Source: Hericium rajendrae (taxonomy: Eukaryota; Basidiomycota; Agaricomycetes; Russulales; Hericiaceae). From it: a stretch of DNA of 64,000 nucleotides. Under the pieces are notes generated by a model. It had not been told where the DNA came from, did not search any database, and saw only the letters and a list, made by a program, of their open reading frames with translations. A program made the translations under genes and the position numbers. Positions 9,023-50,942 of this stretch are shown here, one piece after another (positions within the stretch are counted from its first letter, which is position 1; the number at the start of each line of letters is the position of its first letter). Where the stretch lies: the NCBI GenBank assembly GCA_033439255.1, contig CM065885.1, positions 310,001-374,000 on the forward strand, written 5' to 3'.

Positions 9023-9579
9023 ATCATTAATCTGAGTTTGGCTTTACAAGAGAGATACATTGGGCAAGAGACATGCAACAGGAGAGACAGAAGCACAATG
9101 TCACAGATCGCTCCATTTCTCTCCGCCTTCTTCTCTGCCATCAAGGCATCGTGTCGGTCATGTGCTCTAGCAGCCCCATCACATGTTCACTTCCTCACAT
9201 AACCTGGCATCAGAAAAATCAGTTTTCTACATAGCTTCCAGCCAATGATATGGCTCCTATGATAGTTCTATGCACTCTATGTATTTTGGCAGCACAGCTT
9301 TATAGCTCTATAAGACCTATCATAGGTTCTATAGCTGTTGGTGGTGGGTATATAGAGCTATGTAGTTTTGAGTGACAGTTATGCTAGCTATATAACATCA
9401 TAGGGTTGCTATCAATGCTATGATTCCTATCATACCATACCTAGAACCCCAAAATATACTAAGGCAAGAGCATCTTAAGCCAATTGTCTAGGTTGAGAAT
9501 ATATTTAAATTATGGGCTCAGGAGTAATAAACAACAGCTAATTCTACTATATTTAAAGTAAATAAGTAATTAGGGCCAA

Positions 9580-10520
9580 TGCGGGCATGTATCCACGGCG
9601 CGGGAGGCCATCACGGGCCCGGGGCCCGTACACGAGAGTGCGCGCACTGGCCGACCCGCGCGCGACACGAGGCGCACACATACGAGGCGCGGCAGGCCTG
9701 CGCGCGCGAGACGGGAGGGCCGTGCGCGAGGCACAGCGGGGCGTGCACGGGGCGCTGGGTGGCAGCGGGCCCGTGCGCGATGCGGCAGATGTGCGCGCAG
9801 GAGGTGCGGGGCCCGTACGCGAGGCGGCGGGCCTGTATGCGAGGCGCGGGGCCCGTGCGCGAGATCCTGGGCACCGCGGGCTCGTGTGCGATGCGTCATG
9901 CCTGCGTGCGGGAGACGCAAGGCGCGCAGGGCACGTGGGCGAAGCGTCGGGGGCGGCAGGCCCGTGCGCGAAGCACTGGGTTGCCACGGGCTCGTGCGTG
10001 AGGCAGCAGCCTGCACGCGAGGCGCAGGGTCTGTGCGCGAGACGCCGAGGGCGTGCGTGAGGCGTCGAGGGCGGCAGGTCCGTGCGTGAGGCGTCGGGCG
10101 GCCACGGGCCCGTGCGCAAGGCACTAGACTGCCGCGGGTTCGTGCGTGACGCGGTAACCTGCACGCAGAAAGCGCGAGGCGCGTGGAGGGGCGTGGGCGA
10201 GGGTCGAGGGCGGCGGGGCCGTGCACGAGGCGCAGGGCCGGGCATGAAACGTCGGGCTACCGCGAGCCCGTGCGCAACGCGGCAGGCGTGCACGCGAGGC
10301 GCGATGGCGTAGACGTCGCGAGGACGGACAGGCGCCGCGTGACGTGCGTGCGCTGGCGTGCCCGTCCCGGGTCGCGGACGACCGTGCGCACTCCGCTGAT
10401 CGTGGTCGTTGGAGGCGACGCGCTGGGCGCTAGCGACGTGGCGGCGAGGCGGCGTGGCGGCGAGGTCGGCGGAGGGCAGGGTGTTGCGGGATAGGCGGCA
10501 GTCGGAGGCGAAAGGGGATG
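9580..10520. repeat. GC-rich degenerate tandem core of element I
   Basis: About 0.9 kb of very GC-rich sequence built on a recurring CGTGCGCGAGGCG-like box every roughly 30-40 bases (for example near 9722, 9768, 9808, 9856, 9970 and 10080). Repeat units are too diverged to count exactly. Open frames exist in several registers on both strands, as expected from the lack of stop codons in such DNA. I do not annotate them as genes. Confidence 0.6.
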
Positions 10521-10545
10521 AGGGCGCGGGAGGACGAAAGAAGAC

Positions 10546-10578
10546 GAGAGTATCGCTCGTCGAACGAGCGATACTCTC
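10546..10578 (-). other. Conserved hairpin of element I
   Basis: Arms GAGAGTATCGCTCGT (10546-10560) and ACGAGCGATACTCTC (10564-10578) pair perfectly over 15 bp around a 3-nt loop. It lies 43 nt downstream of the leftward splice donor at 10621. The same hairpin at the same distance, with compensating stem changes, occurs in copies II, III and IV. Confidence 0.8.
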
Positions 10579-10985
10579 TAGATTAGTACGAATAGATGAG
10601 TTGAGACCTTTTTTTACTTACCACCTTTGAGGCCCTCGGCATCCGACTATCCTCCTCCAGTGTTCGATCCGATGGGAGCAAGAAGAGGGATGGCGAACGG
10701 GGGAGACAGGGGAGTGATGGTGGTAGGGACAAGACGAACTTCGACGCGCGTTCGGTGCTTCAGCCACCGAACGAGCGAAGCTACGTTGTTCGAGCTTTAA
10801 CAAACCAAGTAAAATCGTAAAAATTCAGAGAAAAAGAACACTATGATAGATCATACAGTAAACCAGAATCAATGAGAATTCTATGTAGATATCTACTGCA
10901 CCGTGAATTGCTGAGCAGCAGCATCAACATAATAAAGTCTAGCGCCCAGTCTCTGACGCGACGCTCGGCAAGCGCCCGGCAACCA

Positions 10986-11183
10986 CGAATCCCGGCTCCA
11001 CCCGGGATTCGTATATAAGGCTCGCGCGACGCGCGTTGCCTCTTGCTATTTAACTCCCACTGTCTCTTGCCACGTCGACGCCTTCATCGACGCCCTTTGC
11101 TTGCTCGTCATCATTCTTTACTTGCTCGTCATCATTCTTTACTTGCTCGTCGTCAATTCTTTACTGGCTCGTTGTCTTTAAGG
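10986..11183 (+). promoter_or_regulatory. Rightward promoter and first exon of element I
   Basis: A perfect 10-bp palindrome (CGAATCCCGG, 6-nt loop, CCGGGATTCG at 10986-11011) abuts TATATAAG (11012-11019). The following GCTCGCGCGACGCGCG block is shared by all four copies. A presumed first exon runs to the splice donor AAG|GTAACC at 11183. The layout reads as a Pol II promoter. Confidence 0.55.
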
Positions 11184-11248
11184 TAACCTTTCATTGTTTT
11201 TTTCTTATTGCTCATACTAATACTAATATCTTTTAAGTTGTCTTTTAG

Positions 11249-11269
11249 ATTTCGCATTTTGTTACTTTG
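11249..11269 (+). other. Tiny exon-like box (21 nt) in element I
   Basis: A branch-point-like TACTAAT and the acceptor TCTTTTAG precede a 21-nt segment with TTTCGCATTTT, which ends directly at the donor GTAAGT. Equivalent boxes with the same core and flanking splice sites are present in copies II and IV. Copy III keeps the core motif. Confidence 0.45.
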
Positions 11270-11877
11270 GTAAGTTTTCATGTGTTATCTTTGTCTTTAA
11301 AGACTAATGTTTTCTTATCTTTTACTACTTATCTTATCTTATCTTGTACTTATCTTATCTTGTACTTATCTTATCTCTTACTTATCTTATCTCTTACTTT
11401 CTTACTTATGTTTTTGCTTTTTAATTAGTAGTAATGTTTATGATATCAATATAATCTTGATGCATTGAAATAGCTTATACTTGTGTGATCATATCTTACT
11501 AATTCTGATGTGATTGTAGAAAATATTTATAGTTTCAATAGATTTTATTGCTTTAATATATATTGAATATAGAATATGTGAGACACATATTAAATGTAGG
11601 ATATATAAGACACATACTGAATATAGAATATGTAAGACACATAAGTCTTATAGCTTTAATAGACACTTATAGCTTTCATAGCTAGTTAGACTATCATAGC
11701 TACATAGTTAGCTATCATAGATATCATAGTACTTCATAGCATCACTCTTCAGCTTCATAGCACTACATAGCATTCCCCTTTAGCTATGCTGGCTATAGAG
11801 AAAAGGGCAGTGCTATGGAACTATGAAATCTATATAGACTTTATAGAGCTATGTACCACTTACACATTTATCTGATG

Positions 11878-13370
11878 GGGGCTATCCTTCACCCATGCCC
11901 TTGTTCCCCTTTGGGACATCCTATTGTTCTCCCTCTCATTGTTCTCCTTTTGGCCACCATTGTTCTCACTCTATTGTTCGACCCATTATGGTGTCCATTG
12001 TTCTTTTCCCATTGTTGTCCCAGTACTTATAGGCTCTCTGTCACTCACCTATTTCCCTAGATTATCCATTTCATCTGTACTGTACTGTACCTCCAATACA
12101 GGTCACTGTGCTGCTAGTCGCTCTCTGCTCTCTCGCTCTCATCATCACTAGTGACTTGGGTGGTTCTCTACTGTCTACAACCAAGTCTTGACACACAAGT
12201 CAAGTCATGAAAAGTGCACAGGAAAGAGGCAGTGTGCTAGCACCAGAAAGCAAACCAGACCCAGAATCAGATGCAGCAGAGAGTGAAACAGAGGGAACAG
12301 AGGGATCAGAGCTGACAGGAGAAGTAGGACTAGATCCAGCAAGAGTGGAGTCAATGAGAGATGTAGGACTGACAGAAGTAACAAGAGATGCAGAATCAGA
12401 CAGAGAGCATAGTTACAGGCATAGTTACAGAGCCAGACTGTTCTTTACAGCCAGAGAGCATACCTGCAAGTGCACCAGACCCAGAGTTGGGAGCACCAGA
12501 ATCAGAAAGCATACTTGAACCAGAGAGTGAGGCAGTAGAGCCTACTATGCCAGAGACAATCCATGGTCGAGGGGAAGATTGTTTAGGAATGGGAGTGGCT
12601 CCTCATGAGATGTCTGTGACCTCAGATGCGTGACTAGTGGCACAAGGAGCTGGTGTTTCTTCTGCTTGGGGCCAGCATTCTCCTCGGTGTTCTGACGATG
12701 CTTGATGGGAGCATTGGATGGCTGAGATGTTGAAGGGATTCCATCTTATTCCTGCTCAGATCCAGATTCTGCTTGCTCTTGCTTGAATCAGGCAGTCCAC
12801 CTTTCAAGACATTTCACATGTGCCACTGAGAATAGTCACTAAACATGACCTCATCAGCTTTTCAGAAGTCTGCACCAAGAGCGAGCAAAGAGAATGCAAC
12901 ACACATCTCATTGATGTAATACTGGTAAACTTCGAGTGTCACTTGAGTCCAGGATGATGGTGCACAACTGTACATTTTGAATATCAGCCAGATCACACAT
13001 GTGTCACAGATCACTCCATTTCTCTCCGTCTTCTTCTAGCTGTCTTATACTATAATAGCTATGGCAGCTATAATATCTTATACCCTATGCTATATCAGCT
13101 ATATAGCTTATGCTCTATGCTATGGTAACTATGTATTAAGCTCCTGTATCTGAACAGCTATGTTCTCATTAGTTTCAGATGTGGCATCCTCTGCAAGAAC
13201 ATTGTCCAGTGAAAAGAGCAGTGCTTGTGGCCTAGGAAAGGTGATGTTGTCCAGCTCTGCTGCTGCCTGCACCTCTATGCTTCCTGGATCATACTATGGT
13301 GATACACGTATATTAATTATGTGTGAGGATCTTTGCTACAATAGCTTACACACCTGTATTCCTAGATTTG
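11878..13370. other. Low-information region between element I and a transposase remnant
   Basis: 12207-12633 has two overlapping plus-strand frames rich in Glu, Ser and Pro (for example ESKPDPESDAAESETEG). They switch frame near 12410 and could be a decayed acidic linker. 13030-13150 has another patch of CTATAG/ATAGCT motifs like the element termini. I see no gene I can support. Confidence 0.3.
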
Positions 13371-13379
13371 GCTGAGTTT

Positions 13380-13700
13380 TGAGAAATGCACTAGACAAGT
13401 CTTCTATTTCGGGCTTGGGAACAAACTCAGAACCTGACAGTGAAGGCAGTGAGAGACTCGGGTGGTGGTCAGTGTCATATCCCAGGGGTTGAGAAGATGA
13501 TGGTCCTGGAGTTGCCTGCCTTTGACTGACAGCATGATCAATTGGACGAGGTAGCTGTGAATTATCTCAGTACTCCTTGTGAGCATAGTAAGTAGAACAT
13601 GAAACCTTCTTCTGGCATTTGCAGAAGGCAGCACAATCACAGTAACAAACTCCAGTATTGGATGTTGTAGCTTTGAGCATAGTGATGTAGTATGGCAGTG
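13380..13700 (-). pseudogene. Fragment with a CxC...C zinc-like motif, possibly CACTA/Tnp2 transposase N-terminus
   Basis: In one minus-strand frame the sequence reads YCDCAAFCKCQKKVSCSTYY followed by AHKEY, a stop, then a Pro/Ser-rich acidic segment ending SEFVPKPEIEDLSSAFLK. A CxC..C motif followed by S-x-STYxxH is common at the N-terminus of basidiomycete Tnp2/CACTA-like and related transposase proteins. I recall the style of motif but cannot run a search. The frame is broken by at least one stop and no catalytic domain follows. Confidence 0.35.
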
Positions 13701-13907
13701 CAGTAGTATTGCAAGTCAAGGGTGCGCTGCATATACATCACACACAATGAGTTGCCTCAAGCAGGTAACTCACTTCTTATACAAGAGAAAAAAATGATGA
13801 CTTCCATCTGTACAATACAGAGTGCAAAAACAACCTACTTAGAGAGTACAGAATCAAGAGACTAATTGCATTGTACATAGCAAACTGTCCCTTGATTCTA
13901 CCAGTAG

Positions 13908-14065
13908 TGAATGGTATGGGTAACCCTTGGGTACTTTTGAGCTAACCCATACCCATACCCATTAAAACTCACACCCATGCTGTGGGTATGGGTTTTTTGT
14001 GGGTTGGGTATGGGTAGGATATGGGTTCATGGGTAGCTGTGGGTTTATGGGTTACCCAAGGGTTG
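13908..14065. repeat. ACCCATACCC satellite patch with inverted ends
   Basis: The stretch is made of ACCCAT/ATGGGT hexamer-like units. It starts with GGGTAACCCTTGGGTAC and ends with GGGTTACCCAAGGGTT, which are inverted copies, so the block can fold back on itself. A short related piece lies at 14365-14390. 14070-14690 otherwise shows nothing I can identify. Confidence 0.5.
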
Positions 14066-14693
14066 TAACATGTATTGAGAGACTATAGTCTTGTTATGTC
14101 ATAAATATCTCAATATAAGCAGATACACATCAATAACATTGTAGCAGTTAACACTGATCAGTCAAAAAAGTCAAGAAAGTTCCATTATATTGTCTCTCTT
14201 TTTCATCTCAGACTCTTTATTATCTATTTTATTATCTTTTGGAGCATCTGCCATGTTAGCCACCCTTAATACATTAGTCTGATTGTTGCTTGATTTAGTA
14301 TATAGTATGGTTTGCATCTTGATAATATACTTTGAACTAATCATTCTCAATATAGAAAAACCCATGACCCATGGTATGGGTATGGGTTTTTCACACGCTG
14401 TCGTGAACAAAACCCGTTTTGATCATCGACCTGAGTGATTCAGTGATTAAAATTGTACGATAGATCGGTATCGGTGTGCGATAGATCAGTATGGGCCGAT
14501 AAATGGGTTGCTGAACACTATGGGACCTGATCAGCAAAAACCAAGCGACCAGACCAAGTCGAGACCCAGATTCAAGATCCCGATCACCCTCAACCTGCAG
14601 TCTGGCGCCCGATCTTAAGATTCAGTAATATTCATGTGGAAGCAAGAATGATATTAAAGGGTTCGCGTTGACACACAGTGCCACCTGGCAACC

Positions 14694-15518
14694 ATGCTCG
14701 GTATTTTCTGCCCTCATCGCTCATCTCTTGATGCACAGCTTTATCCGCTGCTCGTCAATCCAATCTTCAAGGACAATCCCATCGAAGTCCGAGTAACCCG
14801 CGAATACACCCGCCACGTGCTACCTAATTCGGTCATCTCAGGTGTACAGCCCACGTCAGGATTCCCCAGGATGTCTATCTCGAGCAGAGCATCGATAAGT
14901 GCCGTGCGCCCTGCCTCGTGTCAACGGCCAGGTGGCATAGCCCCACCGGACCAGCATGCCCTACCACCTCGCCCCTCCTCTCCTCTCCAGATCGTCAATG
15001 ACCTCGACGATGATGACCACCTCACGTATCCCTCCTCCTATCGTCATCTCTCGGTAGAGGCACGGTATCCTGCCTACTCGCTCAGCTGGTTCGTCACGCA
15101 GCGCCCATCCCTTCACATCCGCAAAGGCCTGCTCGTCGAGCTGGTGCTGACTTACAAGGAGACCACCCTCACCACCCGAGCTCGCTTGGCCAAGATCTCG
15201 CATGTCGGCCCAACCTGGGTGCACTTCTGAGCAGAGCGTGAAGACACTCGGGGGTACGAACCGACAAGTGTCCAGCTCGTGGTCCCTCGCATCTGGACCG
15301 AGCTCCCTCGCTACTATCCCATCCTCGCTCTCCTTAGCTGCCGCCATCCGATCGACATCCACGAACCATTCGACCCGGCAGGTGACAGGCAGATCCACAA
15401 CCGGCCATTCGTCCTCCCCGACAATGTCGACCCTGAGGATGTGGAGAGGGTGGAGCAGTTGCGGCAGTGGTCATGCAAGATGGATATCTTGACAGGGAAG
15501 GAACGGTACTACATCTGA
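14694..15518 (+). pseudogene. Unknown 274-codon ORF interrupted by one TGA
   Basis: A plus-strand frame opens at ATG 14694 and runs to a stop at 15516-15518, with a single in-frame TGA at 15228-15230 after PTWVHF. Both halves have ordinary, non-repetitive protein composition. The N-terminal half has a Pro/Ser-rich middle and DLDDDDHLTYPSS. The C-terminal half includes VQLVVPRIWTELPRYYPIL, RPFVLPDNVDPEDVE and ends GKERYYI. A CGA-to-TGA transition would explain the stop. I do not recognise the family. It stands alone between repeats, with no obvious introns. 15519-16085 after it shows nothing I can support. Confidence 0.5.
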
Positions 15519-17170: not shown

Positions 17171-18085
17171 TGATTTATATTTTGGGTTGTTCATAAGCCT
17201 GGAATATATACTCATATCCTTAAAACCACGCCACCGTCACGACAACGCATTGTCAGTCCTGTACATACCACCCCCCTCTTATCCAAAAACATCACCACCA
17301 TGCTCGTGCTCTCACTGTCACCATCGTCTCTCACTGTCTCATCTTTCACGTCCACTCAAACGGGCTTAGACTGGTGACTGAGTCTCTAAAATACAACAAG
17401 GTGAGGAGGGTTGTGTATAAAGACTGGTAGACTGATAGAACTCGGAGTGACATCATAGGAAGGGGCCTTATGATTGAGTGCTGCACGTGAAATTTCATGT
17501 GACTGCAGCATGCCTGAGGTTGAGCACTTTGAGCACAGAGGTCACATCACATTTTAATTATCCTCATGACTACTTTGCACGTACGCTGATGCGCCCTTTA
17601 GCGCGCCTTGTAACGGCATTGCCCACTCCCCGCTTCCTTGCCCGTCCCGCTTCACTTCACCTCAGCCACACCAAGTCCGCCCACCGCGACGTTGCTCCCC
17701 GCACAGGACAAGCGCCCCCACGGGTTCGGGACCGACCAGGTCGGACTAAAGCTGGTGTCCCGTGGTCCGATGCACCGAACGGGCCGGAGATCAACCGGCC
17801 GGACGAGTCAGCGGCACAGGAACAGAAGCACGCCCAGAGAACCAGCCGGCTCAATCAACGCGCCCTCGAACGCCCACACGCCCCCGGATCACGAGCGGCG
17901 CCCGCGACAGTGCGCTACTGACGTCATCCCAGCCATTCCAGCTCGACGCGCCCGCCGTTCCCGACGCACGCCCCGGGCGACATTGTAAGGCGGCGCCTTT
18001 GATTCGTTCATACCACGCGCACGCCCTCTGCCCTGCACGGGCCGAGCCGCAACAACTCCACTCGCCAAGGGACCCGGAGCAGCAT
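17171..18085. other. No recognisable gene
   Basis: 17171-17560 is ordinary intergenic sequence. 17600-18080 is GC-rich, with open frames in several registers of low-complexity Arg/Pro/Ala composition that I do not believe. Element II is inserted at its right end. Confidence 0.4.
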
Positions 18086-18634
18086 CTGAGAAAATCCACA
18101 TAGCTATAGAGCTCTATATAGATTATATAAATGTCATAGGGCCATAGCTATGCCACCTATTCTATAGATGGCCATAGAAGGGGGTCATCTATAGAGTGCT
18201 ATAGAGCTACTTAGGATAGCTATAAAGTGCTATGATAGCTATAGAGCTACAAGACATAGCTATAAAGCTATGAAGGTAGCTATGTAGAATATATTCACTA
18301 TACACATTATACAAAATATATTTGCTATAGATGTCATATATGCTCTAATGATTACAATTAGCTGAGTACTCTACATATTTTTAATAGACTATAATGTTTT
18401 AATTGAGATTTATAGTCAGACTAGACTTAACATGATTCTACAGATATCTACATATTGATAAAGTAAACCATTCACAAAGATCACACAAAGATAAAGAATA
18501 GCAAGATATTTTATTGACTAATTACAACATGATAATACACTACAACATTATATAACACTACAAATTAAATATTTAAAAAATCTAAGACAACATAAACATT
18601 AGTCAAGATTAATGTGAAACACTACAAGACTTAC

Positions 18635-18753
18635 CATCACTACAAAAAAGCGAAATATTCTGGGAAAAAAGAAGACATTAGTATTAGAAGATAACAACAA
18701 TAATATATAGAAGCTTACCAAACTAACAAAAATGCGAAAACTTATAAGACAAT
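18635..18753 (-). other. Two tiny exon-like boxes in element II
   Basis: Reading leftward, box one (18753-18719, 35 nt) lies between acceptor TTTTCAG and donor GTAAGC. Box two (18659-18635, 25 nt) lies between acceptor CCCAG and donor GTAAGT. Both contain a TTCGC-plus-T-run core (TTTTCGCATTTTTG and TTTCGCTTTTTTG). Branch-point-like CTAAT motifs precede both. Confidence 0.45.
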
Positions 18754-18865
18754 CTGAAAACATTAGCATAAGACATAAGAAAGCTTATCTAGCAAGCATA
18801 CAAAGGCACTATAACAAGTATAAAGGCAGTAGCACAAGATATAAGAGACGAAGAATAAAAGCTTA

Positions 18866-19062
18866 CCTTAATTAAGTTAGCAACAACGAGCAACACACGA
18901 CGACGACGGAGAAAGCAACGATGACGAAAGAAGCAACGACGACGAGCAAGCAAACGACGACGATGAAAGCGTCGACGTGGCACGAAATGATGGGGGTTCA
19001 AGAGCAAGAGACAACGCGCGTCGCGCGAGCCCTTATATACGAATCCCGGACGAAGCCGGGAA
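18866..19062 (-). promoter_or_regulatory. Leftward promoter and first exon of element II
   Basis: Reading leftward: an imperfect version of the palindrome (CCGGG..CCCGG, about 19036-19062), TATATAAG (within 19032-19039), the shared GGCTCGCGCGACGCGCG block, then a donor TTAAG|GTAAGC at 18866. It corresponds to 10986-11183 of copy I. Confidence 0.5.
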
Positions 19063-19473
19063 TTGTGGCTGCCGGGCGTGGCCGAGCGTCGCGCCAGAGG
19101 CTAGGTATTAGACTTAAGTATCTTAACCTTGCTGTCCAGTACAATACTGTATCCTTGCTACAAACTTGGCTCATGTATTGTATTGAAACTCATAAAATAC
19201 AATTGATCGCTTTGTTTCGTATTTTTAGCTATTTTACTTGATTTGTTATGTCTCTTCGCGAATTCGGTGGCTGAAGCACCGAACGCGCGTTGAGACTTCT
19301 CAACTCTTACTCTCTCCGTCTCTCATCCCTCCTCCTTCTCCTCCAGGTCTTCTTCCTCCTCCCGCTTGTCTCCCTCTCTCGCCGACTCGAACGTATTAGC
19401 GGGCCTGGAAGCAATGTAGAGGGGCTGAAGGTGAGTAATAAAGCCTCTAATGTAGGTTTTTTCGTACTGATCA

Positions 19474-19499
19474 AGTGTCGCTCATTTCCGAGCGACACT
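19474..19499 (+). other. Conserved hairpin of element II
   Basis: Arms AGTGTCGCTC (19474-19483) and GAGCGACACT (19490-19499) with a 6-nt loop. It begins 43 nt after the splice donor GAAG|GTGAGT at 19431, the same distance as in copy I. Relative to copy I an A-T stem pair is a G-C pair. Confidence 0.75.
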
Positions 19500-21061
19500 C
19501 GCCTTTTCGACACCCCCAAGCCCTCCATCGACACATTCGCGCCGCCCATCGCCCGTCCTACGTCCCCGTCGCCACCTTCGCCGTCCTCGCCGTCAACTCC
19601 CCCTTCCGCCTTTCCAACAACGCCGCCAACCCCCACCTGCTGCCCCCCGCGCGCATCCCCAACGCCCCACGCCCAAACCACCCCGTCACCGGCACCCCGG
19701 CACCCACCTTCGCGCGCACGGCGACGGACTACGCACCCGCGGCGTTCCACGCCGTCTGCGCGTTGTCAACAACGTGTCGCACCGGCCACGTCGTTGCCAG
19801 TGCCCTCCACGTCCCCGCAAGCGCGCGCCGTCGAGTCCCGTTGCCCTGGCAACGGGACTCAGGCGTCGTCCGTGCCCATGGCCCATGGCCCGGCAGGCTC
19901 ACCCCACGCCCGGCATGTGCCCGTTTAGCCCGCGCTCTCGCCCAATACCCGCACGCTCGCAACGCCCCGCCTCCGAGCACGACAACTCACGCTCGCGCCC
20001 AACAAGCAGCACGCGTGCCCCGTGGCCCTGCATGCACGCCCCACACGTGCGCGAAACGCCTCGCGCTCGCCCCCCCCGTCTCGGACACGGCATAGCAGCC
20101 CGCGCTCGCGCACCACGGCCAGCCTGCACGCGGAATGCCTCGGACGCGCGCTAAGGCCAGCCCGCACATGCAGCACCAGGGACGCGCCCTCCACGCCTTG
20201 CCCGCCTGCTCAACGCCTTGCGCGCGTGCAAGACCCCTCGCGCGCACACCACAATGTCCCGCGCGCTCGCTCAACCACCCTCGCACCCGCACAACCATCC
20301 CTGCCCCGCACAACACGCGCAGCGACGCCCCGGACGTTTGCGTATCCGCTCCCAATACCCCGTGCTCGCGTGCAGTCGCACGCCACGCCCGACACGCGCG
20401 TACGCCCGTTCAACACCCCGCGCGCCCATTTAACGCCCCCGCGCGCACGCGCACAACACTCGCCATGCATGCAGAACGCCCTCCACGCTCGCCCGACACC
20501 CCGCATCCGCGTGCAACACACCGTGCCTACCCCCCACATGTGCGCATGACGCTTGGCCCTCCGCGTCCTCTGCGCCTGCGCGCTCAACAGGCGCTTGATG
20601 GTGCTTCACGGTATCAGTGCCCGCGCCGGCACTCAATGTAACTTAATTAGATCTTTTTTTTTTTTAATTTACCTCTGTGATTAGTTAGGACCGAAAATAA
20701 AATAATTTGATTTGACATGTCTGACTTATGTTATCTCTATATTCTGGATAATGAGTATAGTCCCTGTATATCTCACAGATGCCATAGCATATAGCTTACA
20801 TTTACCAGGTGATATAGGTTATATAGACTACATAGGCTCTATAGCAAGTAGGAACATCTCCATAGCTTCTATAGCTGCAATAACTATCTATATAGGCCTA
20901 CATAGATGGCATATAAGGCTATGTAGCCTATATAGGCCTACATAGATAACATATAGGGCTATGTAGCCTATATAGCTACTATAGATCTATATATCTGTAT
21001 AAGTTATCTATATAGCTTAGATAATTGTGACTGGTAGCTATATAAATTTGGGATTTTTCAG

Positions 21062-22121
21062 ATGAGGCAGGATCAGGAAGGAATTGGAGATTGGGTCGGT
21101 CAGCGGGAGGTTGTCGTAGAAAGTCGCGCCGGACCGCCTGAGGCGGCCTTGCCCATTTGTACCGTAGCTACTGACTTGGAGAATCGGAACGGAATCTGCC
21201 TTTTTCCCTCAGAGCTCAGATCTCACAAAGCCCGCCGTTTGATGTTCTCACCGCCAGTTTTCTAAGCACGTCTCAGACGTAGCCTTTCTCACTTACTCGT
21301 TTCGTTCATCGTATTCGTCGTACTCGTCGCCGCGCCGTTATCAGTCAAGCCGTATCACCCGAGACCCGTGAGTCTTGTCGTACCGTCATCGTCCCTAGTA
21401 GAACTGCGTCGGAAGTCGCCCGCGCGCAGCAAGCTCGCCCTCTGCGGTCTTGCTCCCCTGCCCGTAGTACGGTCACCCGTCAGCTACACTTCCCGGTGCT
21501 CCCCTCTTGAGACACTTGGTCCCCTCGCACCCCCCAGTACTCTGTTGGTTTTGGTTTTGGCTGCCGCCTCCATTCCCAGGGTCCACACATCAACGCATTG
21601 TATAAAGCCATTTTACTACACAGTAGCTATCTTTGACATGTTATGGCTAAGATGGAGTCATCCCCAATGCTACAGGGCCTTTGCCACAAAGCTCTTAAGA
21701 GGGGACCATGCATACCATATGCTACAGGACTTCAAGTTTGAATCCTCGAAAAAAGAAAGGCACCACGAGCCCTGTTTGAATCAAATCTTGGATATTCATA
21801 TCACAAACCATAATCGAATTATGACCTACATGTCTCTCATGGCTCGATGAAATGTGAAGAGTCCAATGGGCAAAGCCTGACTCTAGGCTATGCATCGCAT
21901 GCAGACTGCATCGGCAAAGCATTGTTGCTAGCAGCAAATCACCACTATACGGAGCAGATTCTGCTCATCTCGAGGCACTATAGCTCAGACACATAGGCTT
22001 CAAATGATCTTATGCAGTTCATATAAAGTATCAATATCACAGCGAAGAACAATGGTGCATGCATGCCTTCAATGTCGATTGAGGCCCCTCAATATGGACT
22101 ACGATTTTCTGTCCTATGCAT
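21062..22121. other. No recognisable gene
   Basis: The first 500 bases are GC-richer and the rest is mixed. Short open frames (for example 21368-21850) have unremarkable composition and no motif I can name. The region ends at the 5-bp target duplication of the TRIM element. Confidence 0.4.
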
Positions 22122-22126
22122 GCCTG

Positions 22127-22257: not shown

Positions 22258-23183
22258 TAATGTCAAGCTTTGAGTGGTTGAGGGTTTGAATCCCGGTTGA
22301 GACCAGTAATTGTTGATAGACTGAGAAACACACTTGGGTATGAGGTCACTGCTTGGCTTACCTAAGACTTCTCAGGAGGTGACAACTTGCTTGAGACCGG
22401 GTTCTCTGAAATTTCTCCAAAGCCATCAAGGTCTAAGCTCATCGGGTAACCCTTGGGGCCACATCAGAGAAATATGACATTGGTATATAACACTATGTAA
22501 GTTATATAGCTTTCCTAGGTCCATAGCTGTCCTCTTTTATACATAGCAGTCTCATAGCAGTCAAGTAATCTATGCAAAGCTATCATAGCTTGCCATAGCT
22601 GCCATAGCATAGAGCACAAGCTACATAGCTAATATAGCATAGAGTATAAGATATCATAGCTGTCATAGCTATTATAGCATAAGATAGCTATAGAAGCTAT
22701 GCTAGCTATATACTATATCTCTGTTGTTATATTATATCTAGCTAGTAAGATTCCTATCCACTCTATCTTACTTCTGGCAAATATAATGTTCTAGCATGTA
22801 AAATAAAATATTATTAACTTAATAATGTTATACATCTTAATCACAAATATTAAAAGTTTTAATTACATTGTATTATTCATACAACTTTATTACAAAATAT
22901 AACTAAAACTACAAAGACTACTACTTTACATAACTGCAAAAGATAATAAACTTACAATGATAATAAAAAGCGAATATATATATATAAAGAAAGAGACATT
23001 AGTATTAAAATATAACAAAGATAATATATAAAAACTTATCAAATCAACAAAAAGCGAAACTTACAAGACAATATGAAGATATTAGTGTAAGACAACAAAG
23101 CCTACCTAAAAGAACTACAACAGTACTGTAACATGTGTGAAGACATTAGTATAAGATATAAGATATCTAAGAATAAAAGCTTA

Positions 23184-23410
23184 CCTTAAACAACAGACAG
23201 AACAACAACGGAAAAAGAGCAACGACGAGTAAATAAATAATGACGAAGAGCGATTAAACGATGATGACGAACGATTAAAAGATGACGATGAGCGAGCAAA
23301 CGACGACGACAAAGCGTCGACGTGGCAAGGGATGGTGGGGGTTGAAGAGCAAGAGGTAAGGCGCGTCGCGCCAGCCTTATATACGAATCCCGGACGGAAC
23401 CGGGATTTGT
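23184..23410 (-). promoter_or_regulatory. Leftward promoter and first exon of element III
   Basis: Reading leftward: palindrome-like CCGG..CCGGGATTCG (about 23384-23409), TATATAAG (23376-23383), the shared GGCTGGCGCGACGCGC block, then donor TTTAAG|GTAAGC at 23184. Matches copy I 10986-11183. Confidence 0.5.
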
Positions 23411-23825
23411 GGTTGCCGGGCGCTTGCCGAGCGCCGCGTCAGAGACTGGACGCCAGACTCTACTAAACTGACCTGGCTCCCCATAAGCTTCATGTATCGT
23501 AGATACCTGTAATGCTCATTCATTCGACTTATATGTATAGTACATAGCTGTAGTGTTTTTATCTGAATTTATTCGATTTGATTTGATTTGTGGTGGCTCG
23601 AATAATGTGGCTTCGCTCGTTCGGTGGCTGAAGCCATCGAATCGCGCGTCGAGACTTCCCACTTGCTCATTCTTCCACACCTCCCTGTCTCCGGTTCCCT
23701 GCCTCGCCTCACGTCGTTCTTCTCCCCCATCAACAGTGAAGACGGATCGGATAATGGGTTAGTAAGTTGAGGGACCCTAGGTAAGTAAAAAAAAAATCAT
23801 CTTTCGTGTTTATTCGTGCTAACTC

Positions 23826-23855
23826 CGAGTGTCGCTCGACAACGAGCGACACTCG
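23826..23855 (+). other. Conserved hairpin of element III
   Basis: Arms CGAGTGTCGCTCG (23826-23838) and CGAGCGACACTCG (23843-23855) pair perfectly around ACAA. It begins 45 nt after the donor CTAG|GTAAGT at 23781. Confidence 0.8.
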
Positions 23856-25516
23856 TTTACATGTCCTCGCCCTCTCCCCATCGCCCGTCCGACGTCCCCA
23901 GCACCCTTCCCACATTCTCTTCGCTCCCTTCATCGTCGCGCGATATCGCCAGCGCGTCCAGTGCCTGCGTGCAGCAAGCCCAACGCATCACGATGCCCGC
24001 GCACGGCCCCAACGGCGCGCATCCCCGACTCTCCGTTCGTGCGCACGCCACGCACCATGCACGCCTGTCGTGCTGCGTCATTCCGCACCGTCTATGCGCC
24101 GTCAACGACTACGGGCATGGGCCACGTCACCGCCTGTGCCCTCGACGTCCGGTGCCCTCGACGTCCGCATCCCGTTGCCGTGGCAACGGGACTCGACGTC
24201 GTCCCTTCGCGCTCGCCGCGCTTCGAGCTGCCTCATCGGACCCCCGTCACGTCATCAGCACGGCCAGCGACTCTAGCGTGTCCCGCCCGCTCGGTCGGGT
24301 CACCTCTCGCGCACGCAATCCCGCCCACGCGCGCAACGCCTGGCACGCTCGCGCCCTATGCCCTCCTACGCACCGGACACATCCGCAACACCCCGCATAC
24401 GCGTGCCATGCCAAGCACGCGTGCGCAACATCCCGCGAGCGTGCAGAACACCCCGTGCACGTTCGACAACGCCCCGCAGCTGCACCCAACGCCCCGACCT
24501 CGCGCGCCACCGCCGCACGCGTGCCACACCCCTCGCACGAGCGCGCGCAACGCCCCGTGTCCCGGATACACGCAGAGCAGCCCGCCCTCACGCGCAACGC
24601 CTTGCACCCATGCGCAGTTCACGCACGGCCGCGGCACATCCGCCATGCCCGCACGCGGGCCTGCCAGCTCACGCAAGCGACTGCGGGCATACGGCCGCGC
24701 ATCGTCTCGCCGACCCGCTGCTGTGTAGACCCCGTCAATGCCGGGTGCCCGCGCCCACGCGCCCTGCGCGCCCCGCCTCCGTCTCTTCGCCTCACGCACG
24801 GGCCCGCCGTCCGCTGCTCCTTGTCTACACCCTCACGCCTCGCGCATGGCCCTCGCGCCTTGCTCACCCGCTTCATCCTTCGCGCGCGGGTCCGCCGCGG
24901 TCCATCACCCTGCGCATGGGCCCGCCAGCACGTGCACTTCCGCGCACGGGCCTGGGCTTCGCGCGCGACCATCGCGCCTCGCATGCAGAACTGCCATGTC
25001 GCACACATCAGCCGCGGTCTAGTGCGCGTGCGCACCTTGTCGCGCCCCGCGAGTGCGCGTGCCAGCCCTGCCTGTGCACGCCGCACGTAACGTAGTATAA
25101 TTGATTGTACTTGTAATAACAATGAATATAATCAAATATATTCTGGAATCTTATGCACCTACCTGACTCGACATAATACTAATAGTGATCATAGCTCACC
25201 TGACTAAGTAAATGATATCATCAATATGATAATGCTATATATTTCAAACTGCTAACTATGGAAGCTATGATAGCATCACATAGCTGACACTACCAGCTAT
25301 GAAAGCTATAATAGCATCACATAGCAGACACTACCAGCTATGGAAGCTATGAAAGCTCTCATAGCTCTACATAGCTGGATAAGCAAACTTTATAGCTCTG
25401 ATAGCTCAATGATAGCATCTATAATGTAACCTGCAGCTATATGGAATTTACTTTTCTCAGATGCAGGGTATACTATACCTTCCACTCTGGGGCGAGTGTC
25501 CTAAAAGAGGGGATGA

Positions 25517-25659: not shown

Positions 25660-25664
25660 GCCTG

Positions 25665-28440: not shown

Positions 28441-28445
28441 CGTCA

Positions 28446-44578: not shown

Positions 44579-44856
44579 TATGACTCAGCAAACGAATACA
44601 AACAAAGTCCTAGAAGGACGCTCACCAATTTGCTTGCTCCCGCGGCCCACTGAGAACAACTTGTCTTCCTACTACATATTCATTGTGGTCTTCATCTTGT
44701 CTTTATCGACTGTTATAGTTTATGGGCGTGCTCGGAGCAATCGACCTCGATCTTCCCGTTTCTTTCATGTCGTGCGGGACTTTCAAGCTGCTTTCCGCCC
44801 TGGGCATTCGTAGTCCTCACCCTCGTTCTAGCCTTTTCGCATTGTAGCCTTTCCGC

Positions 44857-45021
44857 TGGAGCAGGCCAAAGGGACACGAAACCCAGCAGCGCTGGTGATG
44901 GGATGATGATGATGTGCTACTACATGCTGCCTCTGATCTGCCTCTATGCTGACTAAGCTGCTGCCTCTAGCGGTGCAACCATGTGATCTCTCCCTCTCAG
45001 ACCCCCTGATCTCCTACTCCA
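44857..45021 (-). repeat. 3' LTR of the Gypsy element
   Basis: 165 bp, starting TGGAGCAGGCC and ending CTCCTACTCCA (inverted TGGAG/CTCCA ends). It differs from the other LTR at one base (CATG here, CACG there), a CpG transition. Confidence 0.9.
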
Positions 45022-45034
45022 TCGTCCCCCCCTC
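45022..45034 (-). other. Polypurine tract
   Basis: On the minus strand GAGGGGGGGACGA directly precedes the 3' LTR. A purine run here primes plus-strand DNA synthesis in LTR elements. Confidence 0.65.
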
Positions 45035-45060
45035 AAACATGGCGCCGCCCTCGGCGCCCC

Positions 45061-47067
45061 TCAATGCCCGACCAGCTCCTCCTCGACCTGCTCCACCTCC
45101 TGCTCCACAGTGTCATGGTCCTCCGCCACCTCTTGCTCCTCCTCAGCACGCTCATGTGCAGCCACCTGCTCCTCCGCCACCCGCAGGGCCTCCTCGAATG
45201 CCTGCTGCTCGATCTCCAACGCCGAGCCCGAACGTGGCGTAAAGGCACGCAAACGGCGCGCGCTAATGGGCGAGCCTTTCACCGGTTGACCGGTTCTAGT
45301 CACGACCTCGTACGAGTTCCGATTGCGCGATGCAATGCGGTAGGGTTCGGACCACCTAGTAAGAAGCTTGCGCTCGCTCCGAAAGGTGAAGTCGAGTTTG
45401 TTGTCGTACACCTGTACAAGCTGTCCGACCTGAAATAAGACCTCACCCGGCAAGCGCTGCTTGAGTTCCTGGTCGAATGCAGCTTTGCGACGGATCGCGT
45501 GCTTGACCATGGCCTCATATCCATCAAGACGTTGCTGGGCCACGTACGCAATATGTGTTGATGCATCGCCTGGTCGTAGGACAGATGCGGCCTCTGCGAT
45601 AGATGAAGGGGGCGTGTTGACCACCCGGCCGAAGAGCAACTCCTTCGGCGAGAACTTTAATGCAGGCAGCAGGCGATTATTGAGTATGCGAACGGCCTCG
45701 TCCAGGTGGTTCGGCCAGTGCGTGGGGAGGTCTTTCGGTGTCATGGTCACATAGTCGTCCTCGCCGAGGCCCGGCGCTGCCAAGCGTGCAAGGACATGGA
45801 GGAGGAGTTTGTTAGTACCCTCGACCAAGCCGTTGACCCACGGTGAGTATGAAGACACCACGTGGTGTTTGACAGCCCATTTCTCGCAGAATGCCCGTAC
45901 TTCCGCATTCCTGAAGTGGGAACCGCCATCTGTCATGAAAGCTTCTGGCGGAACGAACCCTTGGAAAATATGTTGCAAGCAACCTATCGTGGTCTTCGCC
46001 GAGCCTTTCACCGTGAATTTGAATGCCCAGACGTGCTGCGAGAAGGTATCAAGGAATAAGCCGACGGTGATGTGCTTACCCGTGGCCTTGGGCATTGCCA
46101 GGTAGTCGCCGACGAGCAACTCGAACGGGTGACGTCGAGTGATGGGTTCGAGCAGCGCATGTATGTGTGGCGCACCGTATCCTTTGCACTTGGGGCAGTC
46201 CTTGATGGCCTCGATGATGGACGTGTTGAGGCCCGGGCTACACACACGATCCATGAGTGCCATTTTGATGCTGTCGCGGCCCCAATGGCCGCCTTCGATG
46301 TGCTGCGTGTATGCGAGCACCTTCGCCTCCACTCGCGTGATGCACTCCATGCGATGACGGCCACGTGCCACGGCGCCGCCACGCAGGCGCCATAACTTGC
46401 CATCCTCGAGGAAGTACTCCGAGGACCTGTGCTGTGCGCGACGTTTGTCCCGTAAGCGTGTGGTGCCTGTGTATTGTCCCGTGAGTGCATCTAAAACGTC
46501 CAGGTATAGTGGTTCAGTGGCGAACCGCTCGAAGAGGGCTTGATGGGCGGGATCGCGTTCGACAACTAGTGTCATGACATCGTTAACGAGGCCGCGCGAC
46601 ACTTCCCAGTCCTCGTTGACCGTCCAGTCGCTACCGTCGCCCACCGTGTGCGGAAGCCCTTCGCCCTTCCGACTGAGTCCATCCGCAACCACATTCAGCT
46701 TGCCCGGGAGGTGCTTGACATCTATTATTTGGTACGCGAGGATGCCATCGCACCATCGTGCATGCATAGCGTTGAGTCCATCACTGAGCAGGACGTCACG
46801 GAGGGCCTGGCAGTCGGTTTCGACAATCACCGGGAAGCCCCAGATGATGTCCGCGAATTTGTCCAAGGCGAATTTCAGCGCCGCGAACTCGAGAAGGAAT
46901 GGCTTGTACTTCTCTTCCGACGCGGAAGTGCGCTTGGACGCGAATGCGATGGGGTGCGATTTGCAGACGGTCTTCCCGTTGTCTAGCTGGTACGTGGACT
47001 TCTGCGTGAGGACGGCCGTGAACCCGTCTTTGCAACCATCCGAGGTGACCATGAACGGCGTTCCATC
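45061..47067 (-). pseudogene. Gypsy RNase H and integrase region
   Basis: This continues the RT frame after the TGA at 47068-47070. It begins DGTPFMVTSDG (RNase H first Asp region), with ASKRTSASEEKY and VIVETDCQALRD, then LPGKLNVVADGLSR. Integrase follows: the zinc-binding H..HIEGGHWG with CPKC; catalytic Asp in LLVGDYLAMP; Asp in FMTDGGSHF; and Glu in NGLVEGTNK, the D,D-35-E arrangement. The end is a Glu/Ala-rich coiled-coil-like tail (RVAEEQVAAHERAEEEQEVA). Integrase joins the cDNA to host DNA in the nucleus. No stop interrupts these 660 residues, so decay here is slight. Confidence 0.9.
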
Positions 47068-48216
47068 TCATCGCGGTCCGCGTAACACTGGCTCAGCTGT
47101 GAGCACCGCTTTCAGCCGTATAAAGGCCTCGGTGTGGACCGCCGTCCATTGCTCCTTTAGCTTGTAGCCCTCCATAACACAGCGGTAGGCACTTTTTGAG
47201 GACTGGGCTGGCATATCGACTTCACGGAGCAAGTTGCACAGTGGGGCTTCCATTTTTGCGTAGTCCTTCACCAAATCGCGAAAGTGGCCTGTGAGCCCCA
47301 AGAATGACACTAGATTCAGTGCGTCGTGAGGTTGGCTCCAGTCGACAACTGCCGTCAGTTTTGAGAGATCCGGCAAGACACCTTGTGGCCCAACGCGCGC
47401 TCCGGCAAAGACAGCTTCGGACATGAAAAACGATGATTTGTCCGCGGATAACGAGAGATTCCAGTCCCGCACACATGTGAAGATAGCACGCAATTTGTCC
47501 ATCATCTCGCCGAAGGTATCCGAGGCAGCCCCACCATCATCGACGAAAAGTTCCATGATCTGCGCCGTGAGCAAATCATGCATATGCAGGCCAGTGACGT
47601 GCGCGAACGAGGCGGGGGCTCCGGTCATGCCAAAAGGCATGCGAAGGTACCAGAAGTAACCCCTTCCTTCAACATAGAAGGCGGTGTACGGGCGCGAGTC
47701 GATGTGCATGGTTAACGCATAAAATCTGGACGCGAAGTCGAACACCGAGATGTAGCGGTGCCCACTCAGATTCTGCTGCTTCATACGAATGTCTCCTTGG
47801 GGCATTGGGGCCACCGTCGTGACCTTGTTGACTTCATTGAAGTTCTGGCAAATACGCCACTTCTGCGGGGGCTCTACCGGAGTGGGACGAACGGTTTGCG
47901 GTGGCCTGGGTGGCAAGTCAAACATCGGCGGGAGTCCCGCGCCAACGCATTCGTCGTTGATTCGTAATTGGAGCTCATCGAGGGTGAGACCGCCGCCTTC
48001 GTGTGCTTTCTGCGCCAGCGTCATTGGCGACACCGCGCGGACTCGCGACGGATGTACGGCTTCGATTATGCCCGCCTCGAGCATTTCATCCACTTTTTTA
48101 TTGAGGTATTGGTGCTGAGGTGGTGTAAGAGGGCGTTGGCGCAGTTTGACCGAGAACGTCGCGCCTTCCGGTATGTTGAGTTTGTGGACTGCATCGTCGG
48201 CAGGCTTGACCTCCAT
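47068..48216 (-). pseudogene. Gypsy reverse transcriptase region
   Basis: The frame begins MEVKPADDAVHKLNIPEG directly at the border of element IV and continues through QRPLTPPQHQYLNKKVDEM, WRICQNFNEVNKVT, PMPQGDIRMKQQNLSGH, FDFASRFYALTMH, MPFGMTGAPASFAHV and the active-site LFVDDG (the family's form of YxDD). It then enters the connection part and ends at TGA 47068-47070, in the same frame as the RNase H region that follows. The N-terminal part lies beyond the insertion, at 50943-51187. RT copies the element RNA in virus-like particles in the cytoplasm. Confidence 0.9.
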
Positions 48217-48639
48217 CAGAAAAATGTGAAATCTACATAGCTTCCAGCCAATGCTATGCCTGCTTTCATAGTGCTATAGCTGCTATGTATTTGAGCCATG
48301 TAGCTATACAGAACTATGAGAGCTATCATAGCTGCCATAGCCATGGGTGATATCTATGTAGCACTATATACTGGTAGTACATTACTATGTCTGCTATGTA
48401 ATCTATGTGATTTTAGGTTCTCTCTATATATGCTACAGATACTATGTTCAATACAGAGCTTCATAAGGCTGCTATGAAATCTCAGGCTGCTATACAATCT
48501 ATAGTTGCTATAGAGTCTATATTTCTAGCATTATGATGCATACAACAATAAGGTAATACATTAGATTCAACTACTATAAAATGTAGCATGCAAAGTGGTC
48601 TGCTGGCATACATGAGATTATCATCGTAGCGGACTCGCA

Positions 48640-49700
48640 CAAGTTGTTGCACATGCACGCGAGTTGTGCATGGGACTCAGAGCCCCGCATGCGCAAGCCA
48701 AAACGACGGCGGACACGTTACATGGTGTCCGTCCTGTACGTGCTGGCGTGGAGCCGCGGAAGAGGTGACGCGGCGACGGACGTCGCAGGGGCAAGGGCGT
48801 TGGGGTCATGGACGGGTAGGTGCTCGTGGCCGAATGGACCATGCGCGCGTCGCTTAAGGCGTGCGCACGCCATCTGGCGCATGCGAAGGCGTGCACGGGC
48901 AGGCACACATGGACGACGACAGGCGCAGACGTGTGCGCGCTGTCCGTGACATGTATCGCCGTGCGTGCACAGTCCCTGGCGAACACGGGCGTGCGGGTGG
49001 GCGGCAGTCGCGACCATGCACTGACAGGCGTGCACGCGCTGCAGGGACCGTGCGCGAGGCGTGCGGGTCACGCGGGGGTTGTTTGGCTCGTGCGCGGGCT
49101 GCGGCCGTGTATGGGTCGTTGGATCTGCGCGGGGCCGACTGAGGCACTGCGCAACGCGCGCGTGTACGCAGGCACTCGCGGCCGTATGCTGGCGCTGGCG
49201 TGCGGGAACGTGTGTGCGGGGGGCTTGCGTGCGCAAGCGGGCGGCCCGTGTTGATAGGCCCGTGCGCGTGGGTCCATGTGTCGGCGCAGCGCGGTCGTGT
49301 GCTGGCGCTGTCGTGCGCAGCCGTGCGTGCATGTGCGTGGACATGCGGGCGCAGACGGCGTTGCACACCGGCGTGGGCACGCTGTGTGCTGGCGAGCGTA
49401 TGCTGGCGAGGGTGTCGTGCCGTGACCTGGCGCAGGCTGCATGGCCGTGACCTGGCGCTATCGTAGGGCCGTGTGCGCAGGCAGGCGGGGGCAGATGGAG
49501 CCGTACGCGGGCGTTGGCGAGGCTATGGGTTGGTCGGCGCGCGAGGGGGCGAGGGCTGCGGGAGGCCGGTGATGCGTTGGCCGATGGAGTGCCGTGGGCG
49601 GCAGCGGGGTTTGTCGAAGGGGCGGGGATGCGGAGAGGCGCGGACGTGCGCGAGGGGGAGGGGCGGGGTGTCGAAGACGGTGGGATGACGCCGGGAGTAG
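48640..49700. repeat. GC-rich degenerate core of element IV
   Basis: Very GC-rich sequence with recurring GTGCGCG, GCGTGTGC and CACGGGC boxes. It corresponds in position to 9580-10520 of copy I but differs strongly in sequence. Long open frames on both strands reflect base composition. Confidence 0.55.
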
Positions 49701-49708
49701 AGAATCAA

Positions 49709-49742
49709 CGAGAGTACCGCTCGATAACGAGCGGTACCCTCG
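49709..49742 (-). other. Conserved hairpin of element IV
   Basis: Arms CGAGAGTACCGCTCG (49709-49723) and CGAGCGGTACCCTCG (49728-49742) pair with one mismatch around ATAA. It lies 43 nt after the leftward donor at 49785. A T-A stem pair of copies I-III is C-G here. Confidence 0.78.
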
Positions 49743-50109
49743 AGATTAGTACAATACAAGAATAAAGAAGACTTCTTTTACTTACCTTGTAGCCTTCCAA
49801 CTCCTACTGAACCCTTCCGGCCGTCGACTTGAGGAGGAAAAGGAGAGGAGAGGGAATGAGAAGAGAAGGCGAAGGGATGTAACGAGCCAACACACAAGTC
49901 GAAGTCGAACGACGCGACTTCCATGCTTCAGCCACCGAACGCGCGAGTTCGAATGCTTTCGAACTTAGAAAAGCGTATAAAATCATAACAAATCTAGGAA
50001 AAAGATGGCAGACAGCGTTTACTAGTATAATCCGTTTGAATGAGCTACATATCTAACTAAACTACTGCGAGCTACTGGGCAGCAAAGCAAACTTACGGAA
50101 ATCTGGCAC

Positions 50110-50282
50110 TTAGCCTCTGACGTGGTGTCCGGGCCGAGCCCCGGCAGCCACATTTGGAGCTCCGCCGGGCAAACCCGCGCTCACTATATAACCCTCGCAC
50201 GACGCGCATTCTCTCTCTCTCTCCAACCACTACATTCCCCCGACTTTCCTCGGCAATTCATCTCTCTTTCCTTAGCCTTCGG
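50110..50282 (+). promoter_or_regulatory. Rightward promoter and first exon of element IV
   Basis: TATATAA (50185-50191) is followed by the shared CCCTCGCACGACGCGC block, a CT-rich leader and donor TTCG|GTAAGT at 50282. The palindrome of copy I is only partly kept (GCCGGGC/GCCCGG pieces around 50130-50170). Confidence 0.5.
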
Positions 50283-50417
50283 TAAGTCATTCGTCTTCAT
50301 GTCTGCTATTCTATACTAATGTTGTTCATGTCATAGGTTATATATTTACTTTTTAATATCTTTGGTATGTCTTATGTCTTGATCACTATTGTCTTAATTA
50401 CTAACTTATCTTTATAG

Positions 50418-50444
50418 ATTATATTTTCGCTTTTTGTAATCTTT
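50418..50444 (+). other. Tiny exon-like box (27 nt) in element IV
   Basis: The seg­ment between acceptor CTTTATAG and donor GTAAGT contains TTTTCGCTTTTTG, the same core as in the other copies. Confidence 0.45.
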
Positions 50445-50942
50445 GTAAGTTTAGTATGCTTACTTTGTCTTTATCTTTTAGTAATAAGTATAATGTTTCT
50501 ATTTGTTGCAACTAGTAGTAGTATCTTTGTTTGTAATAATATAATAAAATGAATATAATCTTGATGCTTTAAACAAAGTTTATATTTGTGTGATTATTTT
50601 CTTTGGATCATATTATATAACTTTGATCAAGATTTATAGTTTCAATAGGCTTTACTGCTTTGATAGACATGTTAGGCCTACATATTGAATATAGAATATG
50701 TAAGTAACATAAGTCTCATAGCTTTGATAGACACTTATAGCTCTCATAGCTAAGCATACTATCATAGCTGCATAGTCAGCTATCATAGCTACTATAGCAC
50801 TTCATAGCATTGCTCTTCAGCTTCATAGTACTACATAGCATCTCCCTATAGCTATGTGGGCTACAGAGAAAAGGGCAGTGCTATGGAACTATGAAATCTA
50901 TGTAGGCTTCATAGAGCTATGTACCACTTGCAGATTTTTCAG

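Follow-up and report, generated by a model that had tools for sequence, protein, structure and literature searches.

Among described DNA transposons, those closest to the elements reported here belong to Plavaka, which the main text of Kojima (2025, PMC12730594) places in the CMCT, or CACTA-like, clade. The termini given there for PlavakaB are CATCA..TGATG, with target duplications of 2 or 3 bp. Within Russulales, the same text reports TET genes for Kyakuja only. In the PHIS group, duplications are ANT (Pangu), CWG or TNA (Nuwa) and TA (PHISTA). In the main text of PMC12730594 the word "hairpin" is absent and "non-autonomous" occurs once, about TET genes. The present study concerns four elements, A to D, lying in a 64,000-nucleotide stretch of fungal DNA (C8:310001-374000, hereafter the window) from a genome of 46.8 Mb in 19 contigs. 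Very probably these are non-autonomous elements of Plavaka type. Between their ends they carry a module that we read, from its sequence signals, as a putative conserved non-coding transcription unit.

The four elements are mutually related, measure 2.7-3.0 kb each, and lie where the original prediction had placed them, although every border is 3 bp further out. Elements A and D are on the plus strand, B and C on the minus strand. Element A spans 9208..11877 (2670 bp; ends CATCAGAAAAAT and CATCAGATAAAT), its limits being set by the end pair and by empty sites in four loci; element B spans 18083..21064 (2982 bp; ends CATCTGAGAAAA and CATCTGAAAAAT), as set by the end pair and an empty site in one locus. 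The limits of element C (22462..25463, 3002 bp; ends CATCAGAGAAAT and CATCTGAGAAAA) and element D (48214..50945, 2732 bp; ends CATCAGAAAAAT and CATCTGAAAAAT) come from end-pair evidence. All four start with CATC(A/T)GA(A/G)AAA. The CAT preceding the motif first proposed for the ends, C(A/T)GA-R-AAAT, belongs to the repeat, CAT..ATG being part of the inverted repeat. The pattern CATCWGARAAA occurs 1229 times in the genome as compared to 77 times for the pattern read backwards, an excess that suggests, by our estimate, several hundred elements. Element A as originally delimited (1-2664) has at least 13 further whole-length matches, 11 at 89-97% and two at 81-83%, plus many partial ones; whole-length matches of D are found at 71-76% (counts being lower bounds), and those of B include at least one at 94% and at least one at 72%. 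Elements A to D are one old, diverged family with many copies in the genome. The richness of the ends in ATAGCT, seen from the outset, is borne out by counts of ATAGCT or AGCTAT: 46 ends, each taken as 300 bp, hold 363, while one base shuffle gave 7 and the flanks hold 5.

The AT target duplication originally assigned to the family proved mistaken. The AT is contained in the CAT..ATG of the inverted repeat, and the actual duplications are GG for A (9206-9207 and 11878-11879), AG for B (18081-18082 and 21065-21066), CA for C (22460-22461 and 25464-25465) and TC for D (48212-48213 and 50946-50947). In the window and the loci fetched from the genome (L numbers below), 33 adjacent plus/minus end pairs lie 1.5-9.6 kb apart, and 31 of them have identical dinucleotides outside CAT..ATG. 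As locus L001 is element A again, the duplication is present in 30 of 32 distinct pairs, L016 and L017 being the ones that fail; L007, whose right end is off-pattern, was left out of this count (its flanks are CA and CA). Mispaired ends, used as control, gave identical dinucleotides in 93 of 1056 combinations. The dinucleotides vary (TG, TT, AA, TA, TC, GG, AT, AG, GA, CA). Empty sites provide the base-exact counterpart: for element A, L033, L006, L027 and L009 show uninterrupted flanks with a single GG and a gapless junction; for B, L009 has a single AG; for the element of L013, four loci have a single GA. For the element of L021, L020 offers an empty site of lower identity. The fetched loci compared yielded no empty site for C or D, and none that is base-exact for the insertion in a Plavaka gene intron at L037, where relatives differ by 3 bases and are compatible only. 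The AT duplication is wrong because the empty sites of A and B keep only a single GG or AG, at borders other than those first drawn, and because 30 of the 32 distinct pairs show varied dinucleotides outside CAT..ATG. The true duplication is 2 bp of no fixed sequence.

What lies between these ends does not resemble a transposase gene. The genome search listed no match to the Plavaka transposase domain (PF18759) inside the window (123 of 166 candidates scored), and the long frames of A to D are compositional, falling mostly in the GC-rich core; for these reasons A to D are at best non-autonomous and not full Plavaka members. As far as tested, this upholds the proposal of a non-autonomous DNA transposon family driven from elsewhere. 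Elsewhere in the genome, PF18759 has 132 matches, counted exon by exon, with no signal in any of 14 control genomes. Across 5779 compared bases, two Plavaka copies have an identity of 99.7%, the boundary of which is CATCTGGAAAAA, and a pattern search finds CATCTGGAAAAA ends 12.4 kb apart around a Plavaka gene in three copies (C2:3857472-3869885, C4:1119862-1132277 and C2:25000-37414), with duplications TC, TG and CA, respectively. The search for an autonomous copy found none with the exact ends of A to D; a 12.4-kb Plavaka with similar termini is present. The suggestion of an undescribed transposon type is not supported, as ends and duplication resemble those of PlavakaB in the description given in the main text of PMC12730594 and Plavaka with similar ends is present in the same genome. 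We hold with fairly high confidence that A to D are non-autonomous and of Plavaka type, leaving the sublineage undecided; agreement with PlavakaB at the fifth terminal base is only partial, and confidence is held slightly lower on that account.

The frames of the C2 Plavaka match PF18759 (E 7.5e-86), Peptidase_C48 (6.1e-6, with a second piece at 0.0044, below cut-off) and Tet_JBP (1.3e-7; 31.5 bits, under the curated cut-off of 34.9). The 12.4-kb element, seen in L043 (2473-9901) and L067 (C2:3857472-3869885), is thus predicted to encode, besides its transposase, a protease resembling Ulp1 and an oxygenase of Tet/JBP type. By our reading of L064 and L039, another Plavaka-bearing insertion, on C4, starts with CATCAG, ends with CTGATG and has AAG on both sides. 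Two short elements, L037 2494-5873 and L026 501-3433, come within 18 and 139 bp, respectively, of where a Plavaka domain match ends, the former inside an intron of a Plavaka gene; chance and target preference are both possible. A search for CAT- or TGT-type pairs at the Plavaka loci L037-L043 returned weak pairs and the short element inserted in L037 only, the other end of the 12.4-kb element falling outside. Longer elements were also considered as autonomous copies and rejected: ten frames from longer loci or flanks are devoid of a transposase domain and gave two weak, unrelated matches. One frame, in L019, has nine matching proteins, and three of these bear the name of hypothetical proteins from Mycena and Tricholoma. 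Another, a 613-aa frame in a 5.3-kb family element (L010 2045-3883), has four relatives, all from Hericium alpestre and three of them named with mention of Yae1; parts of this frame's stretch resemble the window end (62791-63967), and gene capture is possible.

Every short element tested contains a hairpin of about 14 bp (HP1), usually near mini-intron and TATA signals. In element A, HP1 lies at 10545..10579 (+), has a stem of 15 bp, and is identified by covariance model R1 and by covariation; in B (19472..19501, -), C (23825..23856, -) and D (49709..49742, +) it is identified by pattern and covariance model. A hairpin is therefore present in all four elements, as first noted. The model was built from 19 hairpins, so that many of the searched loci are included by construction; L011, L012, L015, L016, L017, L022, L025 and L028 were excluded from training. 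It detects HP1 in 20 of 20 fetched C1 loci (L009-L028) and in L037, the lowest scores being those of L012 and L015 (29 and 31 bits); in the window it finds the four elements only, and it finds none in L029-L036 or L038-L044. A mini-intron-like signature abuts the hairpin on the strand opposite to the element. In A (10579..10622, -), it consists of a GTAAGT donor, a TACTAAT branch-like site and an AG at the foot of HP1; the same order recurs in B (about 19430-19472), C (about 23780-23825) and D (about 49742-49786), again opposite to each element. Going left, A to D read GTAAGT (GTGAGT in B), a CTAAT-like site (CTGAT in B, CTAAC in C), AG and hairpin, with a putative intron of about 40-50 bases. 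Facing right, about 430 bp from HP1, is a promoter-like TATATAA box (11012..11018, + in A; 19033..19039, - in B; 23377..23383, - in C; 50185..50191, + in D). The divergent starts originally proposed therefore have promoter- and splice-like signals in the sequence, as signals only. No match to Rfam 15 at gathering score was obtained in the window. A limited literature search, mostly of listings, met no report of non-autonomous elements in which a covarying hairpin next to intron signals has been retained; papers whose text contains the end sequence had, among the matches listed, unrelated titles.

The two arms of HP1 change together. In 30 sequences, 95.0% of cells are paired versus 87.9% after shuffling; both sides have changed at 8 of 14 pairs versus 4.3 (4 of 500 shuffles reach 8), and doubly changed cells number 30 versus 7.2. 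The covariation score is 0.288, against 0.154 in shuffled and at most 0.093 in slid alignments; relatedness can inflate the comparison with shuffles, and the slid control retains it. One could ascribe this pattern to mutation rather than to selection on an RNA. Template switching in imperfect palindromes is a palindrome-correcting mechanism, and in otherwise Plavaka-like elements it could rewrite one arm from the other, with neither selection nor RNA being needed. The occurrence of several palindromes is what such a mechanism could give. Besides HP1, there are HP2 (GAGTCCCGTTGCC..GGCAACGGGACTC), situated in the core of B (19831..19862, -) with a counterpart in C (24165-24196), which a pattern search detects in 11 of 24 elements but not in A or D; HP3, detected likewise in 13 of 24; and another palindrome beside the TATA box in some elements. 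However, correction alone would hold neither the position of HP1 nor the splice-like signals, and by pattern HP1 stands beside branch- and donor-like signals in 24 of 31 elements; it is also in all 20 fetched C1 loci, as opposed to a core that is matched in about 7-11 of 21. We hold the purely mutational account to be unlikely, if still a serious competitor.

A second account, to which we assign a comparably low likelihood, sees the module as what remains of a promoter region from an autonomous element, now lost, whose genes were divergent; the module would be passively carried along. Divergent promoter-like signals with splice donors are indeed what one expects of a two-gene transposon, and a TATA-type box is present, by our reading, in 27 of 31 elements. 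Yet the 12.4-kb Plavaka is without HP1 (best score 10.8 bits, E 0.4, with filters off), indicating that the module was not left over from the interior which that Plavaka has today. Moreover, positions 1451-2100 of A, which include the TATA stretch, are matched under lenient scoring in 21 of 21 other elements whereas the core is matched in about 7-11, unlike the outcome of passive decay, and HP1 pairs have changed on both sides.

HP1 itself is found near Plavaka-type ends. Perfect HP1 sites number 75 in the genome and 0 in the control; among 50 such sites listed, 17 lie 1.3-2.3 kb inside an inward-facing CATCTGGAAAAA end, where 0.35 are expected (one of the 17, C1:115556, is in an A-type copy and represents a coincidence). 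Two short elements, L065 (3.5 kb) and L066 (4.1 kb), were compared with the 12.4-kb Plavaka. In L065, one end is shared over 221 bp at 96% (275 bp at 88%) and the other over 225 bp at 64%; in L066, identity is 80-85% at one end, whereas at the other it is 80-86% and extends over the first 36-45 bp only. Overall, the Plavaka-shared end covers 221-276 aligned bases at 80-96%. Judging from these alignments, HP1-bearing short elements with genuine Plavaka ends exist. L066 is flanked by CTA on both sides, which we read as a 3-bp duplication; L065 has none. Both carry HP1 twice, in opposite orientation (L065, 1498-2098; L066, 1398-2614), an arrangement that suggests a symmetric, two-way version of the module.

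Core and ends of the elements differ in CpG content. The core, GC-rich in A to D by composition as first described, contains 20-40 CpG per 200 bp versus 12.6 in the rest of the window; with 23 elements pooled, CpG at positions 501-1300 stands at 1.05 of expectation. In A (9577..10542), this GC- and CpG-rich core is not coding. A coding core was rejected on the basis of eight A copies: the three codon positions, with 322 columns each, have 55, 69 and 60 variable ones and hence show no phase, and indels between the copies shift the frame. Its variation consists mainly of transitions at CpG, accounting for 147 of the 182 two-letter variable core columns in these copies; such transitions are the usual mark of methylated CpG. 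The ends present the opposite picture: 46 ends of 250 bp hold 14 CpG versus 373 expected from composition, and 40 of them hold none. TpG+CpA is not raised in the ends (1.02), which points to a built-in composition rather than to decay; the flanks have CpG at 0.62 and TpG+CpA at 1.36. In the 12.4-kb Plavaka, CpG amounts to 9 versus 10.1 expected at one end and to 3 versus 7.8 at the other.

These data can be accommodated as follows. A Plavaka-type transposase supplied from elsewhere in the genome would bind the ATAGCT-rich, nearly CpG-free ends; it would cut at CATC(A/T)GA.. and integrate the element while duplicating 2 bp of target, whatever their sequence, the ends, the duplication and the empty sites being documented above. 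Between the ends of A to D would stand, instead of any recognisable protein gene, the conserved module with outward-facing promoter-like signals, whose left-going strand bears the mini-intron-like signature with its 3' end abutting the covarying hairpin. The module would be transcribed, and either the RNA or the act of transcription would help the element to persist or move, in cis or as RNA; for example, transcription might keep the CpG-rich centre open against methylation. The hairpin-and-intron module may, on these grounds, be a non-coding RNA gene. In its full form, the interpretation is that of a large fungal superfamily of non-autonomous Plavaka-type elements that hold a selected non-coding gene where protein genes would otherwise stand. 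This gene would yield a short spliced RNA with its hairpin at the 3' splice site, and it would be combined with a CpG-rich centre and with ends built free of CpG. Through this anatomy the elements would be adapted to DNA methylation, in a genome that contains a Plavaka with a Tet/JBP-like oxygenase. We put the probability of this full interpretation at roughly 0.4, which makes it tentative.

Several observations weigh against the reading of A to D as Plavaka-type elements with a transcribed module. The pairs of L016, L017, L065 and L066 (3 bp in the latter) are without a 2-bp duplication, as is a fourth CATCTGGAAAAA-type pair around a Plavaka gene, on C1. The lack of HP1 in the 12.4-kb Plavaka counts here as well. 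No autonomous element with the exact ends of A to D (CATCWGARAAAT plus an ATAGCT array) was found, and A to D share with the 12.4-kb Plavaka little beyond the terminal motif, the only matches being weak ones of C. At seven Plavaka loci (L037-L043) no clear CATC-type pair surrounds the gene, in a scan blind above about 9.5 kb. Both ends of B and one end each of C and D read CATCT, PlavakaB being given as CATCA; T is also the fifth base in the local, PF18759-bearing 12.4-kb Plavaka. Finally, further standard pair types in HP1 number 16, no excess over shuffles (15.6).

A new DNA transposon type duplicating AT, or an ISL2EU-like element with AT duplications, is very improbable. All four elements do appear flanked by AT with C(A/T)GA taken as the border, the flanks actually being CAT..ATG; but the extra CAT..ATG is absent from the empty sites of A and B, which have a single GG or AG, and the flanking 2 bp vary from pair to pair. 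ISL2EU duplicates AT and Spy makes no duplication; neither these nor the other PHIS duplications fit the family of A to D, which has 2 bp of no fixed sequence. Tc1/mariner, which duplicates TA, was rejected as TA is found in only 4 of the 31 matching pairs. Least credible of all is a Helitron-like rolling-circle element inserted between A and T, as AT flanks and a hairpin might evoke: Helitrons have no terminal inverted repeat and no duplication, whereas both are present here, empty sites included, and the hairpin is central rather than near one end.

Other features of the window and the genome deserve mention. A 104-bp piece at 13030-13133 resembles the subterminal zone of C, and lone end motifs occur at 7786 (-) and 8207 (+); all are probably remnants of more copies. 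Element D adjoins a Ty3-type pol region (reverse transcriptase, 47068-48216; RNase H and integrase, 45061-47052). A Ty3-type pol frame in the window has its best named protein match in Hericium alpestre, at 75%; together with the relatives of the L010 frame, this suggests a host related to Hericium. Among the matches listed for C1 (to 4.25 Mb), end motifs concentrate in the first 0.75 Mb and again beyond about 4.0 Mb, and the interval 1.06-2.49 Mb holds none. Copies of A and B contain nested insertions (L045-L053), which proved to be other elements. Those within A copies are seen in L046, L052/L053 and L048/L049; we read the insertions of L046 and L052/L053 as flanked by GCGC, and two of the elements nested in A copies start with TGATGTGTGGACCC.

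With the claim of an AT-duplicating new class removed, the family gains a likely home. It also offers a case of non-autonomous elements whose highly diverged subfamilies have kept a covarying hairpin next to intron signals; should the module be transcribed, they would be DNA transposons bearing a non-coding RNA gene. The 12.4-kb Plavaka, with its Tet_JBP match just under the Pfam cut-off, would add a new lineage to those with TET-bearing Plavaka, provided that the host is related to Hericium. The contrast between CpG-poor ends and a CpG-variable core, next to a Plavaka with a Tet/JBP-like oxygenase, makes the life of fungal transposons with cytosine methylation open to test.

In relation to known systems, the family resembles miniature inverted-repeat transposable elements and other non-autonomous DNA transposons in the borrowed transposase, short inverted repeats and high copy number; it differs from them in its size of about 3 kb and in an internal module that is kept across highly diverged subfamilies, rather than being arbitrary filler. 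With the local 12.4-kb Plavaka it shares the CATCTG terminal repeat followed by purines and the 2-bp duplication, the 12.4-kb element differing in that it codes for proteins, has no HP1 and contains CpG in its ends. Measured against PlavakaB as the main text of PMC12730594 describes it, A to D agree in having CATC..GATG termini at both ends of all four elements, 2-bp duplications of no fixed sequence, a mushroom-type host and a genome that also holds Plavaka copies whose ends are similar. At the fifth base they fit that description in part: element A has A there on both sides, C and D have it on one side each, and B on neither. They differ from PlavakaB in that they encode no transposase and carry ATAGCT arrays and the hairpin/mini-intron module.

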